From the NCBI RefSeq assembly GCF_013170805.1, contig NZ_CP051293.1, positions 4,408,001 through 4,472,000 of the forward strand: a stretch of DNA of 64,000 bases, read 5' to 3'. Below, piece after piece: positions 5 through 9,745 of this stretch. Every line of letters starts with the position of its first letter. Position 1 is the first letter of the stretch. The translations under genes and the position numbers were made by a program. The notes under the pieces are model-generated. The model made no database searches. It had not been told where the DNA came from and saw only the letters and a list, made by a program, of their open reading frames with translations. This DNA comes from Mesorhizobium sp. NZP2077 (lineage in GTDB: Bacteria; Pseudomonadota; Alphaproteobacteria; Rhizobiales; Rhizobiaceae).

Positions 5-33
5 TATGCGCATATGCAATACATATACGCATA
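5..33. promoter_or_regulatory. Inverted-repeat operator upstream of RHH-like gene
   Basis: Two 12-base arms (5-16 and 22-33) are inverted copies with a single mismatch around a 5-base spacer. The repeat ends directly at the Shine-Dalgarno sequence (AAAGGAGG, 33-40) of the next gene, so a bound protein would block transcription or ribosome access. Ribbon-helix-helix proteins commonly bind such palindromes to repress themselves, so autoregulation by the downstream product is a reasonable inference. Confidence 0.6.
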
Positions 34-4204: not shown

Positions 4205-4879
4205 TTGGCGCGCGGATTTTTCATCACCTTCGAAGGCGGGGAAGGCGCAGGTAAGTCAACGCAGATCGAGCGGCTGGCGAGGAAGATGCGCGCCAAGAAG
4301 TATGACGTCGTGCTCACGCGCGAACCGGGCGGCTCGCCGGGCGCCGAGGCGGTCAGGCATGTGCTGCTTTCAGGGGCGGCCGAGCCATTCGGGCCGAAGA
4401 TGGAAGCGCTGCTCTTCGCCGCTGCCCGTTCCGACCATGTAGAGCAGGTCATCCGGCCGGCGGTCGAGCACGGCTCGATCGTGCTATGCGACCGTTTCCT
4501 GGATTCCTCGCGCGTCTACCAGGGCGTCACCGGCGGGATCGACCCGGCCTTCATGGATGCGCTGGAACAGGTCGCCATCAACGGCATGATGCCCGACATG
4601 ACGCTGATCTTCGATATCGATCCGGCCGAAGGACTCAGGCGCGCGACGCTGCGGCGCGGCAGCGATGCCGACGCGGATCGCTTCGAGAAGGAAACACTTG
4701 CCATCCATCAGGCCCGTCGCGAGGCCTTCCTGGCGATCGCCGCGGCTGAGCCGGGACGCTGCATCGTCATCGACGCGTCCGCCGATCCCGATACGGTTGA
4801 GCACGTCGTCACCGCGGCCGTGTTCGCGGCTCTGGAGGCGAGGGCAACCGCCCGCAACAGGCAGGCCGCACCGGTATGA
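4205..4879 (+). CDS. tmk: Thymidylate kinase
   Basis: It phosphorylates dTMP to dTDP in the cytoplasm. The P-loop GGEGAGKST lies at residues 11-19, the TREPGG motif at 38-43 and a DRF motif follows the ARSDH region, all typical of bacterial Tmk; the 224-residue length is normal. Translation starts at TTG (4205). The stop codon overlaps the holB start (ATGA at 4876-4879), so the two are translationally coupled, an arrangement common in this order. Confidence 0.96.
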
Positions 4880-5925
4880 TCTTCGAACGCATAGCGCCGG
4901 AACAGCATGACACGCTGGACGGCGTGCCCGAACCGTCCGAAACGCCCCGTCTGGTCGGGCACCGGCAGGCGGCCGAGATGCTTGCCGCCGCCTATAGGTC
5001 GGGAAAGCTGCCGCATGCGCTGATCTTTGCCGGACCTGTCGGTATCGGCAAGGCGACGCTGGCCTTCCATCTGGCGCATCACCTGCTGAAGCACCCGGCC
5101 TTCGCGCAGGCGCCGGAAAGCCTTGCCGTTCCCGATCCGGCCTCGCCGCTGTCTCGCCAGATCGCGACCGGGGCGCATCCGGGTGTGCTGCATCTGACGC
5201 GTCCGATGAACGACAAGACCAAGAGCTTCAAGACGGTCGTCACCGTCGACGAGATCCGCAGGGTTAGCCGCTTCCTGTCGATGACCTCGCATGACGGCAG
5301 CTACCGGGTAGTCATCGTCGATCCCGCCGACGACATGAATGCCAATGCCGCCAATGCCTTGCTGAAGAACCTTGAGGAGCCGCCGGCGCGAACGCTGTTC
5401 ATCCTCATCGTCCACGCGCCGGGCAGTCTACTGCCGACGATCCGCTCGCGCTGCCAGGTGATACGCCTGGCGCCGCTCGACGCCGACGATTTACTGGCGG
5501 TGCTGCAGACCGCCGAACCGCCGCCACCGGGTGATCCGGCCGCACGGGCGGCGCTGGTCGAACGGGCAGGGGGCAGCGCGCGCAACGCGATCCTTTTGAC
5601 GCAATATGGCGGGCTTGAGATCGCCGAGACGCTCGATGCGCTGGTGGCGAAGGGAAAGAGCGACATCGGAGGCGCCTATCGGCTCGCGGAAGCCGTCGCC
5701 GGCCGCGACCAGGCGATCCAGTTCGATATTCTCAACCGCCGGGCACTCGACCTTTTGTCGGATGGGGCAAGCCGGGCTGCGCTCGCCGGTGACCTCGCGC
5801 GGGCCAAAACGCTCTCCGACACCTGGCATGAGGCGTTGGACGCGATTTCCGAGACAGAGACCTACAATCTCGACAAGAAACAGCATGCCTTGACCATGAT
5901 CGATCGCGTGAAGTCCGCGATGTGA
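4876..5925 (+). CDS. holB: DNA polymerase III subunit delta'
   Basis: Delta' is part of the clamp loader that opens the sliding clamp during replication. The 349-residue protein has a Walker A motif (GPVGIGKAT, about 53-61), the AAA+ core with [19 protein letters not shown] and the SRC motif (IRSRCQ). It overlaps tmk by four bases. Its last 34 codons (from 5821) are repeated, with about 15 base differences, at 7997-8107, on the far side of a two-gene insertion; holB itself is intact. Confidence 0.95.
5821..5925 (+). repeat. Left copy of holB 3'-end direct repeat
   Basis: This 105-base segment encodes the last 34 residues of HolB plus the stop. It aligns with 7997-8107 in the same orientation with about 15 mismatches, plus six extra bases before the stop in the other copy. 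The two copies bound the cassette at 5926-7996. Confidence 0.9.
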
Positions 5926-5965
5926 ACAGTCTTTCGGCGAAGCTTTCGACGTAGGCGGCCTGCTT

Positions 5966-6835
5966 TCAGGCAAGGGTCGTATTGTCGGACTGGTTTTTTC
6001 GCTGGACCGCGAGCGCGGCATCGTATTTCGCGCGATTAGCCCAATAGATGGTGGCGAAGAGCAGCGCCTGGTCGCGGAAAGGTACGTGGTCCACCGTGTC
6101 CGTAGCGGCTTCGGCTTCGATCCAGTCGGCGTGAAAGTCGGCGGCTGCCTTCCTGTCGCCGCCGAGAGCCATCTGCTGGAACCGGTGCATATGATCCTCG
6201 ATGTCGAGGTAGCGGTCGGCCCAGACGATCGACCATTGCCGATTCTGCATGGTGAATTTGCGAATCCACCGCTCGCTTAGGTCCATGTCGCCTTCGGGTT
6301 TGGAATACATGACGTTGCGGCGCGCTTCGAGCAATGTGTTGGTGGCGACGACTTCATTCTCACGCCATAAAAGCCGCATCGCCGGATCGTTCAGAAACCG
6401 GTCCGCGTAGATGGGATGGGGAAAGGCGCTTTCCCTCAGCCCATCGATCTTGAAATAGACCAGCAGTTCGGACGCCACGCTGGCTTCGAGTTCGTTGCGT
6501 TCCATCTTGCCGTGGAAAGCCTCGAATCCGATGCCTGGGATAAAGGGCATATGCGCGGCGTGCCAGATTTCATGCAGGACGTAGAGGTCTTCGATAGCCG
6601 GGGACGCATAGTCATCCCGGCGCATGGTCAGCCCCCACCATGTGCAGAAATGCGCGCGCTCCAGGCGGTCGTTGGTGGTTTCGCAGCTGAAGCGGGGCAG
6701 GCGGGCATATTGATCGACGATGCCGTGGACATAACCGCCTTGGCGATGCGAGGATCGGAATGCTTCCGTTTTCCAGTGCGCCAGGCAGTGGGCATGGATG
6801 TCATCGCTCGTGACGAGCAGGATCAAATTCTTCAT
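5966..6835 (-). CDS. HExxH-motif protein of unknown family
   Basis: The 289-residue product has no signal peptide or membrane segment. Its clearest motif is HEIWH at residues 88-92 (His88, Glu89, His92), the zinc-binding signature of many metallopeptidases, followed by NELEASVASE (114-123), where Glu117 or Glu123 could be a third ligand. The N-terminus is hydrophobic (MKNLILLVTS) and the protein is rich in Trp, His and Arg. The ATG at 6835 overlaps the stop of the upstream aminotransferase-like gene (ATGA), so the two are made together. I do not recognise the family; it may be a protease, a hydrolase or another metal enzyme. It converges on holB with a 40-base gap and lies in the repeat-bounded insertion. 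Confidence 0.8.
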   Translation of the reverse strand: MKNLILLVTSDDIHAHCLAHWKTEAFRSSHRQGGYVHGIVDQYARLPRFSCETTNDRLERAHFCTWWGLTMRRDDYASPAIEDLYVLHEIWHAAHMPFIPGIGFEAFHGKMERNELEASVASELLVYFKIDGLRESAFPHPIYADRFLNDPAMRLLWRENEVVATNTLLEARRNVMYSKPEGDMDLSERWIRKFTMQNRQWSIVWADRYLDIEDHMHRFQQMALGGDRKAAADFHADWIEAEAATDTVDHVPFRDQALLFATIYWANRAKYDAALAVQRKNQSDNTTLA

Positions 6836-7932
6836 GACAGCGTCTCGGAATTCGGATTGGCCATGCCGATCCGCTCCGCCATGCCTGGCGTCAGGCACAA
6901 GCGTGGCCGGGCATCGACTGCCCCAGGGGCACGCGTCAGATAGGAGGCCAGATCGGGATCGTTTTGCGCTCCCGCCGCGGCCTGGGCAAGGATGAAGACG
7001 TCCGCGGGCGTCAAGGCAAGGCCGAGCGCCTGGCCGGCATGTTCGGCGACGCTGCCTTGAATGCTCGCGTAGCGGCGCGCCATGGCGAAGACGTCGAACC
7101 GCTCCATCAGCCGTATTCCCAATTGCAGCGATGTCAGGTTCTTGAACCATTGATTGCCAAACAAGCCGAGATTCTCCGATCGGCAGAACACCCCGCCGAT
7201 GCGGTCGTAATAGGCGCCGAACGGTTTGGACAGGCTGATCACCACGGCGCTCACGCAAGGCGCGTCGGCGAGGATCGTCTCCGCCGGCGGTTCGCCGGTC
7301 GCCCCGACATAGGTCAAATCGAGGACGAGCTGGGCCGGGTTCGCGCGCTGGCTCAGGCGACGCAGAAATTCATTGGCCTGCGGCCACACCATGCCATCGA
7401 TGGCCGAGGGCTGGCTGAGACAGAGTAGATCCCGGGGATTGACGGTATCGGCGACATCGCGCCAGGCGTGGCGTTCATATTCCACCACCGCAACGCCACA
7501 GGCTTCCGCATACGCTTTGTAGCCCTCATATTCGCCGCGAAAGATCACAAGCCGAGGCGAAAACCCCTCGACGCGTGCGCGGTTGCCGTAGTCGGCAATC
7601 AGATGAAAAAGCGGCTCGCTTGCGCCTGATGTGGGATAGCTGAATGGAAAGGCAGCCGGGTCCAGGGGCGCCATCGGCTTTGCCCAGCCGAGCCAAGTGT
7701 CGAAGAACCGCCTGTGCAGTGCGTTCTGCTTCCCGGTCCAGGCATGGCGAAACTGATCGAGATAGGCTGCGCGGACCGGATCGGGGCCGTTCCCCCCGCT
7801 GCTGCCGAGCAGCTCGGCCTTTACTGTTTCGATCTCGGGCGTGACGAGGGCGTAAACGGTTTTGCTGGCGCCGGCCTGACGCAAGCGCGCATCAAGGATC
7901 TGTCGCGGATCATATTGCGTAGTCGTGGCCAT
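6832..7932 (-). CDS. PLP-dependent aminotransferase-fold protein (class I/II-like)
   Basis: The 366-residue protein carries SLSKPFGAYYDRIGG (233-247). This matches the class I/II lysine signature except at one position, with Lys236 as the likely Schiff-base residue. LDLTYVG (204-210) supplies the expected Asp and Tyr that contact the cofactor, and SYPTSGASEPLF (99-109) fits the phosphate-binding loop. The C-terminal small domain seems shorter than in true class I enzymes, so its reaction cannot be named; transamination, decarboxylation or C-C bond formation are all possible. It is coupled by ATGA overlap to the HExxH gene. Its upstream region contains the displaced holB 3' fragment and diverges from metG. 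Confidence 0.8.
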   Translation of the reverse strand: MATTTQYDPRQILDARLRQAGASKTVYALVTPEIETVKAELLGSSGGNGPDPVRAAYLDQFRHAWTGKQNALHRRFFDTWLGWAKPMAPLDPAAFPFSYPTSGASEPLFHLIADYGNRARVEGFSPRLVIFRGEYEGYKAYAEACGVAVVEYERHAWRDVADTVNPRDLLCLSQPSAIDGMVWPQANEFLRRLSQRANPAQLVLDLTYVGATGEPPAETILADAPCVSAVVISLSKPFGAYYDRIGGVFCRSENLGLFGNQWFKNLTSLQLGIRLMERFDVFAMARRYASIQGSVAEHAGQALGLALTPADVFILAQAAAGAQNDPDLASYLTRAPGAVDARPRLCLTPGMAERIGMANPNSETLS

Positions 7933-7996
7933 GCCGGTCTGCCTTTTTGTACCGCCGCGAAACTACGGATGGCGACCTGCCTTTGCAACGGTCGGG

Positions 7997-8107
7997 ACTT
8001 GGCATGAGGCGCTGGACGCTATATCCGAGGCCGACACCTACAGTCTCGACAAGAAGCAGCACGCCTTGACCATGATCGACCGCCTGAATTCTGCAATGCG
8101 AATGTGA
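7997..8107 (+). pseudogene. Displaced holB 3'-end fragment (right copy of direct repeat)
   Basis: The segment encodes [10 protein letters not shown] through LNSAMRM, nearly the last 34 residues of HolB, with about 86 percent base identity by hand alignment and two extra codons before the stop. There is no holB sequence to its left: 7933-7996 does not match. It is therefore a fragment left when DNA entered at the 3' end of holB. metG starts 84 bases downstream, as if this were the original holB-metG junction. Confidence 0.9.
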
Positions 8108-8191
8108 CGGTCCCCACCGGGATGGCAAATGCCATTCCGATGCGATATCCACCGCCACGGCTTCCATTCAGACATTCATGATGGTTCATTC

Positions 8192-9745
8192 ATGTCACGC
8201 GACACATTCTACATCACGACCGCGATTTCCTATCCGAACGGCAAGCCGCATATCGGCCATGCCTACGAACTGATCGCCACCGACGCTCTCGCGCGCTTTC
8301 AGCGACTCGACGGCAAGCAGGTCTTCTTCCTCACCGGCACCGATGAGCACGGCATCAAGATGCTGCAGACGGCGAAGCGCGAAGGCATTTCGGCGCGCGA
8401 ACTGGCCGATCGCAACTCGGCCGATTTCAAGCGCATGGCGACCGCGCTCAACGCCTCCAATGACGATTTCATCCGCACCACCGAAGAGCGGCATTACGCG
8501 GCCTCGCAGGCGATCTGGAAGGCGATGGACGCCAATGGCGACATCTACAAGGGCGGTTATGCCGGCTGGTACTCGGTACGCGACGAAGCCTATTACGGCG
8601 AGGAGGAGACGGAGGTCCGTCCCGACAATATCCGCTACGGGCCGCAGGGAACGCCTGTCGAATGGGTCGAGGAAGAGAGCTATTTTTTCCGCCTCTCGGC
8701 TTACCAGGACAAGCTCATCGCGCTTTATGAGAGCCAGCCCGACTTCATCGGCCCGGCCGAGCGCCGCAATGAGGTGATGAGCTTCGTCAAATCGGGGCTG
8801 AAGGACCTGTCGATCTCGCGCACCACCTTCGACTGGGGCGTGCCGGTTCCTGGCGACGACAAGCATGTGATGTATGTCTGGGTTGACGCCCTGACAAACT
8901 ACATCACCGGCGTCGGCTATCCCGATGAAAATGATGAGAAATGGCGTTTCTGGCCGGCCGATGCGCATATCATCGGCAAGGACATTGTCCGCTTCCATGC
9001 GGTGTACTGGCCGGCCTTCCTGATGTCGGCCGGCATCCCGCTGCCGAAGCGCGTTTTCGGCCACGGCTTCCTGTTCAACCGTGGTGAGAAGATGTCGAAA
9101 TCGGTGGGCAACGTCATCGACCCGTTCACCATGGTCGAGCATTACGGTCTCGACCAGGTGCGCTACTTCTTCCTGCGCGAAGTGCCGTTCGGCCAGGACG
9201 GCAGCTACAGCCATGAAGCGATCGTCAACCGCACCAACGCCGATCTCGCCAACGGCCTCGGCAATCTGGCGCAGCGCTCGCTGTCGATGATCGCCAAAAA
9301 CTGCGGCGGCGTAGTGCCGAAGCGCGGCGATTTGACGGAAGCCGACGGTGCCATCCTGGATCAGGCCGTGGCGGCTCTCGCCACCGCGCGCAAGGCGATG
9401 GCCGGGCAAGGCATTCATCTGGCGCTCGCGGCGATCTTCGATGTGGTGGCGGAAGCCGATCGATACTTCGCTGGACAGGCACCATGGGCGCTGAAGAAGA
9501 CCGATCCGGAACGCATGGAAACGGTGCTATGGACGACCGCCGAACTCGTGCGCCGTATCGCGCTGCTGTGCCAGCCCTTTGTTCCGGGGTCGGCCACGAA
9601 GCTGCTCGACCTGCTGGCGGTGCCTGCGGACACGCGTAACTTCGAGCATGTCCACGCCGACTATGCGCTTGTGCCGGGCGTCGCCTTGCCCGTGCCAGAG
9701 GGCGTGTTTCCGCGTTATGTCGAACAGCCGGACGCGAACGCCTGA
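8192..9745 (+). CDS. metG: Methionyl-tRNA synthetase
   Basis: It charges initiator and elongator tRNA-Met. The HIGH motif appears as HIGH at residues 20-23, and KMSKS at about 300-304. The 517-residue length fits the short MetG form lacking the C-terminal tRNA-binding appendix. The ATG at 8192 is chosen because [16 protein letters not shown] begins the catalytic domain; the open frame extends 21 codons further upstream without a better start. The stop overlaps the tatD start (TGATG at 9743-9747). Confidence 0.96.

Follow-up and report, generated by a model that had tools for sequence, protein, structure and literature searches.

A repeated holB end around a two-gene insertion before metG in Mesorhizobium: a coding end and a promoter-like element probably divided between two copies

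In Mesorhizobium sp. NZP2077 (assembly GCF_013170805.1; genome of 7.69 Mb in two contigs), the 3' end of holB occurs twice, once in the intact gene and once more ahead of metG, with two genes enclosed between the copies. This raises the question of why a gene end should be repeated around so small an insertion. The window analysed was the whole stretch of 64,000 nucleotides (nt) from position 4,408,001 to 4,472,000 of contig NZ_CP051293.1, forward strand, and all coordinates given below refer to it. The gene holB, encoding DNA polymerase III delta prime, is intact (4876..5925, plus strand, 349 codons) and was assigned by NCBIfam PRK09112 (496 bits, cut-off 308) and Pfam DNA_pol3_delta2. The metG open reading frame (ORF; 8192..9745, plus strand) is taken by us to encode methionyl-tRNA synthetase, a name given by an earlier, sequence-only reading of this DNA and by general knowledge. 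The answer favoured here, with a probability of about 0.72, is that the holB end performed two jobs, that a single insertion of the two-gene cassette duplicated it, that the jobs were then separated between the copies, and that the DNA element involved is most probably a metG promoter.

A repeat search returned a direct repeat of 106 nt (5821-5926 and 7997-8102, 85% identity). Over codons 316-349 (102 nt) the copies differ at 15 positions and are 85.3% identical, in agreement with the sequence-only reading, which had described a same-orientation repeat of the holB 3' end with about 15 mismatches. The upstream copy (5821..5925, plus strand) is embedded in holB; it has retained the holB coding sequence and lost the promoter-like bases described below. 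The downstream copy (7997..8107, plus strand) is a fragment outside any intact holB in which the promoter-like bases are retained; its reading ends at a TGA (8105-8107) two codons past the stop of the first copy. When the first copy was searched against the whole genome, matches were found at these two places only (E <= 0.001). As had also been described, only two coupled minus-strand genes lie between the copies. These are G2 (5966..6835, 289 amino acids) and AT (6832..7932, 366 amino acids), which overlap in an ATGA, and a spacer (7933..7996) extends from the AT start to the second copy.

Searches of the genus covered holB in 119 genomes (118 matches) and AT in 146 genomes (nine matches). 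The holB-metG interval was read in 116 of the 118 holB genomes, the remaining two being cut off by a contig end in that interval, and in one genome (G123) from the AT search, giving 117 Mesorhizobium genomes with the window included. The distance from holB to metG was 87-162 bp, with no cassette, in 108 of them, and the AT-G2 cassette was present between the two genes in nine; the named relatives with the same cassette belong to Mesorhizobium. The insertion of a cassette, as proposed from the sequence, was thereby supported, since in cassette-free relatives metG directly follows the one holB end. In other genera, metG was located 59-199 bp 3' of holB, free of inserts, in all 28 best-matching loci (of 87 holB matches). 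Eight cassette intervals are 2.2-2.5 kb long and filled by AT and G2, and one has 494 bp. The cassette of genome L048 is decaying: AT is reduced to roughly its first 50 codons, and G2 was not found. In L047 a change of frame around codon 310 splits AT, and the cassette may be decaying there as well. All 117 intervals were also searched with the holB-end consensus of the clade. A second holB end was detected in all nine cassette genomes (91-98% identity to the consensus) and in none of the 108 others; the repeat is therefore not due to chance.

In the uninterrupted genomes, the last 34 holB codons show the lowest silent diversity of 316 windows of this length (0.184 against a median of 0.349; 107 uninterrupted rows). 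Codon 316 is ACT in 63 genomes, GCT in 43, and AGT and ACC in one each; its third base is T in 107 of the 108 genomes. At codon 324, 103 genomes have ATA and five have GTA. These are uncommon choices: across codons 1-315 of these genes, ACT accounts for 3.3% of threonine codons, GCT for 4.9% of alanine codons and ATA for 3.2% of isoleucine codons. The constrained bases mostly spell CTTGGCA...TATATC or GATATC, with the promoter-like pair CTTGGC-N16-TATATC. TTGGCA was found in 107 of the 108 uninterrupted genomes; L124 is the sole genome devoid of it, and its near relative L076 has the motif. The constraint in uninterrupted genomes indicates that the last 34 codons of Mesorhizobium holB would serve both as the end of delta prime and as a DNA element for the downstream gene.

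In the cassette genomes these properties were found on different copies. TTGGCA is present in one of nine embedded copies (L044) and in all nine downstream copies. A consensus was taken from 28 uninterrupted genomes belonging to the same group; measured against it, embedded copies have 71 silent and 14 coding changes, whereas downstream copies have 19 silent and 32 coding changes (Fisher test, 6e-8). Within the two boxes, 20 changes were counted in embedded and two in downstream copies. The downstream copies include one with a stop (L042) and one with a frameshift (L045). In the cassette genomes, these 34 codons rank 218th of 316 windows from the lowest in silent diversity (0.280, median 0.250). 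The ratio of silent diversity between the end and the rest of holB is 1.12 in cassette genomes versus 0.49 in uninterrupted genomes of the same clade; the value of 1.12 was reached by 21 of 10000 label shuffles. Compared with the uninterrupted clade's consensus, the embedded copy of the window itself has 11 silent and three coding changes. Its -35-like box (5823..5828, plus strand) reads CTGGCA in place of TTGGCA, and its -10-like box (5844..5849, plus strand) GATTTC in place of TATATC. The downstream copy has CTTGGC at 7998..8003 (TTGGCA at 7999-8004) and, 16 nt further, TATATC at 8020..8025, both on the plus strand. A whole-genome search with CTTGGCA-N13..15-TATATC returned this site only.

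The losses in the two copies are complementary, and the counts show a silent-site constraint that has been relocated from holB to the metG-side copy. The degree of the split varies: the copies of L044 have hardly diverged (97% identity), L046 and L047 are intermediate (91% in L047), and the split is full in the window and five other genomes. The copies of L047 match past the stop, over 190 columns in all with spacer included, which may reflect gene conversion. Divergence between the copies apparently does not need a foreign strain. The sequence-only reading had derived the embedded end from a donor strain; that part was not upheld, as the changes of the embedded copies are mostly silent and no donor lineage was seen among the 108 uninterrupted and 28 other-genus loci. 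The best matches of the embedded copies reach 88-98% among the uninterrupted congeners and 80-84% in the other genera. Its prediction that the embedded ends would group apart in a tree holds on the surface, in that six of the nine embedded copies stand out, but loss of DNA-level constraint explains this better.

Several observations weigh against this interpretation. L124 is without TTGGCA although it is cassette-free, and L044 has the cassette yet retains TTGGCA in both copies. In L044, L046 and L047, silent sites of the embedded end remain less diverged than those in the remainder of holB. The -10-like box varies between rows (TATATC, GATATC or GTATCT), its first base not being fixed, and ATATC is missing in nine of 108 uninterrupted rows. 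In other genera with holB beside metG the element is mostly missing (TTGGCA in 4 of 28, ATATC[TC] in 2 of 28 loci), and metG therefore does not need it there. Over 5700-8260 no promoter was returned by a simple sigma-70 scan, which requires a spacer of 16-18, and the distance from TTGGCA to TATATC is 15. The Fisher and shuffle tests ignore kinship and count related genomes as separate. In a kinship-aware test of three to four pairs on supported branches, three pairs had the same direction, none the opposite, and one was undecided. Over 200 pairings the ratio of same to opposite to undecided was 3:0:0 in 114, 2:0:1 in 82 and 2:1:0 in four (median p 0.25); nearly all pairs thus point in the expected direction, with significance out of reach for three to four pairs. 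Nine rows, L124 included, have lost TTGG, which required eight changes on a 109-row tree; the terminal branches leading to cassette rows contribute 0.36 to its total length of 7.20.

The element goes with metG where holB and metG are parted, and is therefore not a feature of holB; it is present in 107 of 108 cassette-free genomes and is therefore not a feature of AT. The simplest reading is that it would be a metG promoter, or a metG operator, situated in the holB end. Of these a promoter is preferred, with metG as its presumed target. According to Table 3 of PMC4943231, the SigA consensus of Rhizobium etli is CTTGAC-16..23-TATNNT, and the primary sigma sites of Sinorhizobium meliloti are given there as CTTGAC-about 17-cTATat; CTTGGC-N16-TATATC resembles these sites and stands at the edge of the R. 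etli description. Transcripts beginning inside genes are described as numerous in S. meliloti, with 7,650 internal sense starts among 17,001 (PMC3616915). That the element acts on the metG side as an operator or an RNA leader signal, or by isolating metG from holB transcription, is unlikely by comparison, though this is the most serious of the competing explanations. It would account for a conservation that covers much of the 105 bp and CGAATGTGACGG past codon 349, beyond the needs of two boxes, and for the box spacing at the edge of the usual range. Against a leader, RNAalifold supported a short hairpin and no long leader structure in 49 uninterrupted rows, and Rfam, applied to the whole window at the gathering threshold, matched only the tRNA at 651-737. 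The hairpin, CGGGATGGC..GCCATTCCG, lies upstream of metG (8118..8139, plus strand), and its pairs are present in 42-49 of the 49 rows.

Common to the nine cassette genomes are the site, the gene order, the AT-proximal part of the spacer, and the point at which strong similarity begins in the second copy. From the shared site, gene order and junction sequence we infer one founding insertion, and not a hotspot. The sequence-only reading had regarded holB 3' ends as a possible hotspot for small cassettes; all nine insertions are the same cassette with a shared spacer, and no other insertion was seen in the 108 Mesorhizobium and 28 other-genus loci. In a tree of 116 rows built from holB codons 1-300, all nine genomes fall in one group of 37 rows and require eight changes of state; the rest of holB places them inside the genus tree, amid uninterrupted relatives. 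Identity of AT and G2 tracks that of holB (window and L042, 0.918 versus 0.927; window and L046, 0.840 versus 0.849), with one conflict, the position of L045. The ratio of nonsynonymous to synonymous substitution rates is 0.08-0.16 for AT (window against seven others) and 0.09-0.12 for holB; purifying selection acts on AT. Of 394 genomes sampled from the family, AT was found at E <= 1e-40 in one, that of the window itself; the cassette genes therefore look foreign to the family. The data agree both with an old insertion followed by many losses and with a spread through homologous flanks.

The following history is proposed. In well-studied bacteria neither holB nor metG is dispensable, so an insertion without duplication would have deprived one of the two of its end or of its control element. 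The AT-G2 cassette would have entered once between the two genes, in an ancestor shared by part of the genus, and the double-duty segment would have ended up on both sides of it. The duplication would be long because only insertions that kept the coding end and the element whole could survive. The holB copy, released from DNA-level constraint, would then have collected silent changes. The metG-side copy, released from coding, would have collected amino-acid changes, the stop and the frameshift while retaining the element. The cassette may later have been scattered by deletion, of which a remnant exists, or by recombination through its flanks, or by both. The physical route of the insertion is inferred.

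An alternative suggested from the sequence was that an element of the integrase type integrated site-specifically at the holB 3' end and restored it with its own diverged copy from another strain. A diverged direct repeat of a gene 3' end around foreign genes is what such an event would leave, and the Vibrio cholerae island that targets recA and carries a divergent recA, as described in PMC4405046, is a precedent. This origin is nevertheless considered very improbable. An integrase has no room in the nine intervals: the window insert holds AT and G2 only, and the other inserts are filled by AT and G2 in tblastn, no dedicated integrase search having been made. The embedded copies have mainly silent changes while those of the other copy are mainly coding, no donor lineage resembling the embedded copies was found among the 108 and 28 loci, and the junction sequence is shared. 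Both copies may derive from the resident holB end; the founding event is old, however, and a single founding insertion is seen.

Somewhat less remote, and still improbable, is a plain old duplication followed by drift, with the metG-side bases kept through the short time since the event or through gene conversion. The similarity of the copies in L044 and L047 agrees with it, and the extended match in L047 suggests homogenisation in some lineages. It does not account for the opposite change spectra of the copies and the 20 versus two changes in the boxes, nor for the silent constraint in 108 genomes without a second copy. The division of a double-duty segment after one insertion is preferred to both explanations.

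Integrase-borne islands at gene 3' ends likewise have a gene end repeated around foreign DNA; the holB-metG insert differs from them in having no integrase and no short exact att core, and in copies that are 85% identical with opposite change spectra. Varied, independently acquired cargo at the holB end was not observed, as one cargo is present in nine of 117 genomes. In duplication-degeneration-complementation, two ancestral functions are divided between copies by complementary losses. The holB-metG case resembles this in that two functions of one ancestor would be split by complementary losses; the unit, unlike there, is an overlap of 105 bp between a coding end and a control-like element and not a gene, and it would have been made by insertion between the two users. 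A similar outline is seen in Helicobacter pylori, where restriction-modification genes are reported to have been inserted together with a long duplication of the target (Nobusato et al. 2000, as cited in PMC3031569 and PMC1643837). In both, a small gene set has a long target repeat on both sides and was revealed by comparing relatives. At holB-metG the empty site is single-copy (108 of 117) and the repeat measures about 105 bp or more in each of the nine cassette genomes. Unlike the H. pylori case as cited there, the target here would do double duty, the copies are specialised, and the cargo is a pyridoxal 5'-phosphate (PLP) enzyme pair. Small present or absent segments at one site are repeat-flanked in 10-18% of cases according to PMC2884548, and 66-94% of those repeats are shorter than 30 bp. 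The holB insert shares the presence and absence at one site and the flanking direct repeats, and differs from the segments described there in a repeat of at least 105 bp that would be partly kept by selection. No comparable case of such a split gene end was recognised in the open-licence literature among the matches listed.

What would be new here is the reason for the duplication, a shared double-duty target, and the visible later division of functions. In compact genomes, overlap of code and control is common and the role of each part is rarely visible; here the two copies would separate the protein bases from the control bases. Confirmation would mean that direct repeats at insertion borders have a simple explanation in selection, and would provide a route from sequence alone to promoters buried in upstream genes and a directly testable prediction for rhizobial metG control. 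As a tentative generalisation, which is rather doubted than believed, long target duplications might need no special insertion mechanism: where essential neighbours overlap, the end of one with the promoter of the next, only insertions that duplicate the overlap would survive, and the functions would then split. On that view the holB-metG interval would be a natural series of 108 joined and nine split cases at differing stages, and similar repeats elsewhere could be read backwards to reveal promoters hidden within genes.

The cargo genes form a conserved pair. AT is a fold-type I PLP enzyme: it matched Pfam Aminotran_1_2 (29.6 bits, cut-off 19.7), its structure gave 1019 PDB matches in Foldseek at E <= 0.001, and the conserved lysine motif SLSKPFG is invariant in 37 aligned sequences. 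For G2, no Pfam, NCBIfam or PADLOC family was matched. Its predicted structure is a confident helical model (predicted local distance difference test score 94), for which no convincing PDB match was obtained. ExxH (E59-H62) and HExxH (H88-H92) are conserved in the G2 family, which possibly represents a metal enzyme.

The pair was found at another site in 16 loci, 15 of them named Bradyrhizobium and one a Hyphomicrobiales metagenome-assembled genome (MAG). A hemW-like ORF family (c5) lies upstream in ten of these 16 and a periplasmic binding protein family (c1) downstream in 13. In these loci (L088-L103), the site of AT-G2 in Bradyrhizobium differs from holB-metG and is largely fixed. G2 occurred in ten of 117 genomes of the genus of L101 (Bradyrhizobium) and is scattered there too. 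In L094, AT-G2 is flanked by a direct repeat of 32 bp (91%; 4695-4726 and 6841-6872), a dispersed repeat as judged by eye. Genes for nicotinamide adenine dinucleotide (NAD) synthase and an isochorismatase-family protein, possibly a nicotinamidase, neighbour G2 in MAGs L104, which has AT, and L108, which has no AT match; nicotinate phosphoribosyltransferase and NrtR are also neighbours in L108. Two G2 relatives have a NUDIX-like extension (P0132 by Pfam NUDIX, P0146 by eye). NadA was present in 13 of 13 genomes searched. The extension and the neighbouring NAD genes might hint at an unknown step in NAD or pyridine-nucleotide chemistry. As a guess of low confidence, AT-G2 could catalyse an amino-acid-derived or NAD-linked small-molecule step.

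Two further features of the locus were recorded. The metG proteins of the compared loci diverge into types with about 80-87% or 91-97% identity to the window metG (L044, L082/L184, also L066-L068, L073-L075 and L079-L081). On the holB tree the low-identity type is found at two or more positions, and the cassette co-occurs with both types, a hint that metG was replaced through recombination. A palindromic insert (TGCATGCCG...CGGCATGCA) was seen in the holB-metG spacer of many uninterrupted loci (e.g. L052) and of L044, L045 and L047, and is missing in others. Its GCATGCC was present in 52 of 108 uninterrupted spacers, and in L047 the insert stands behind both holB ends.

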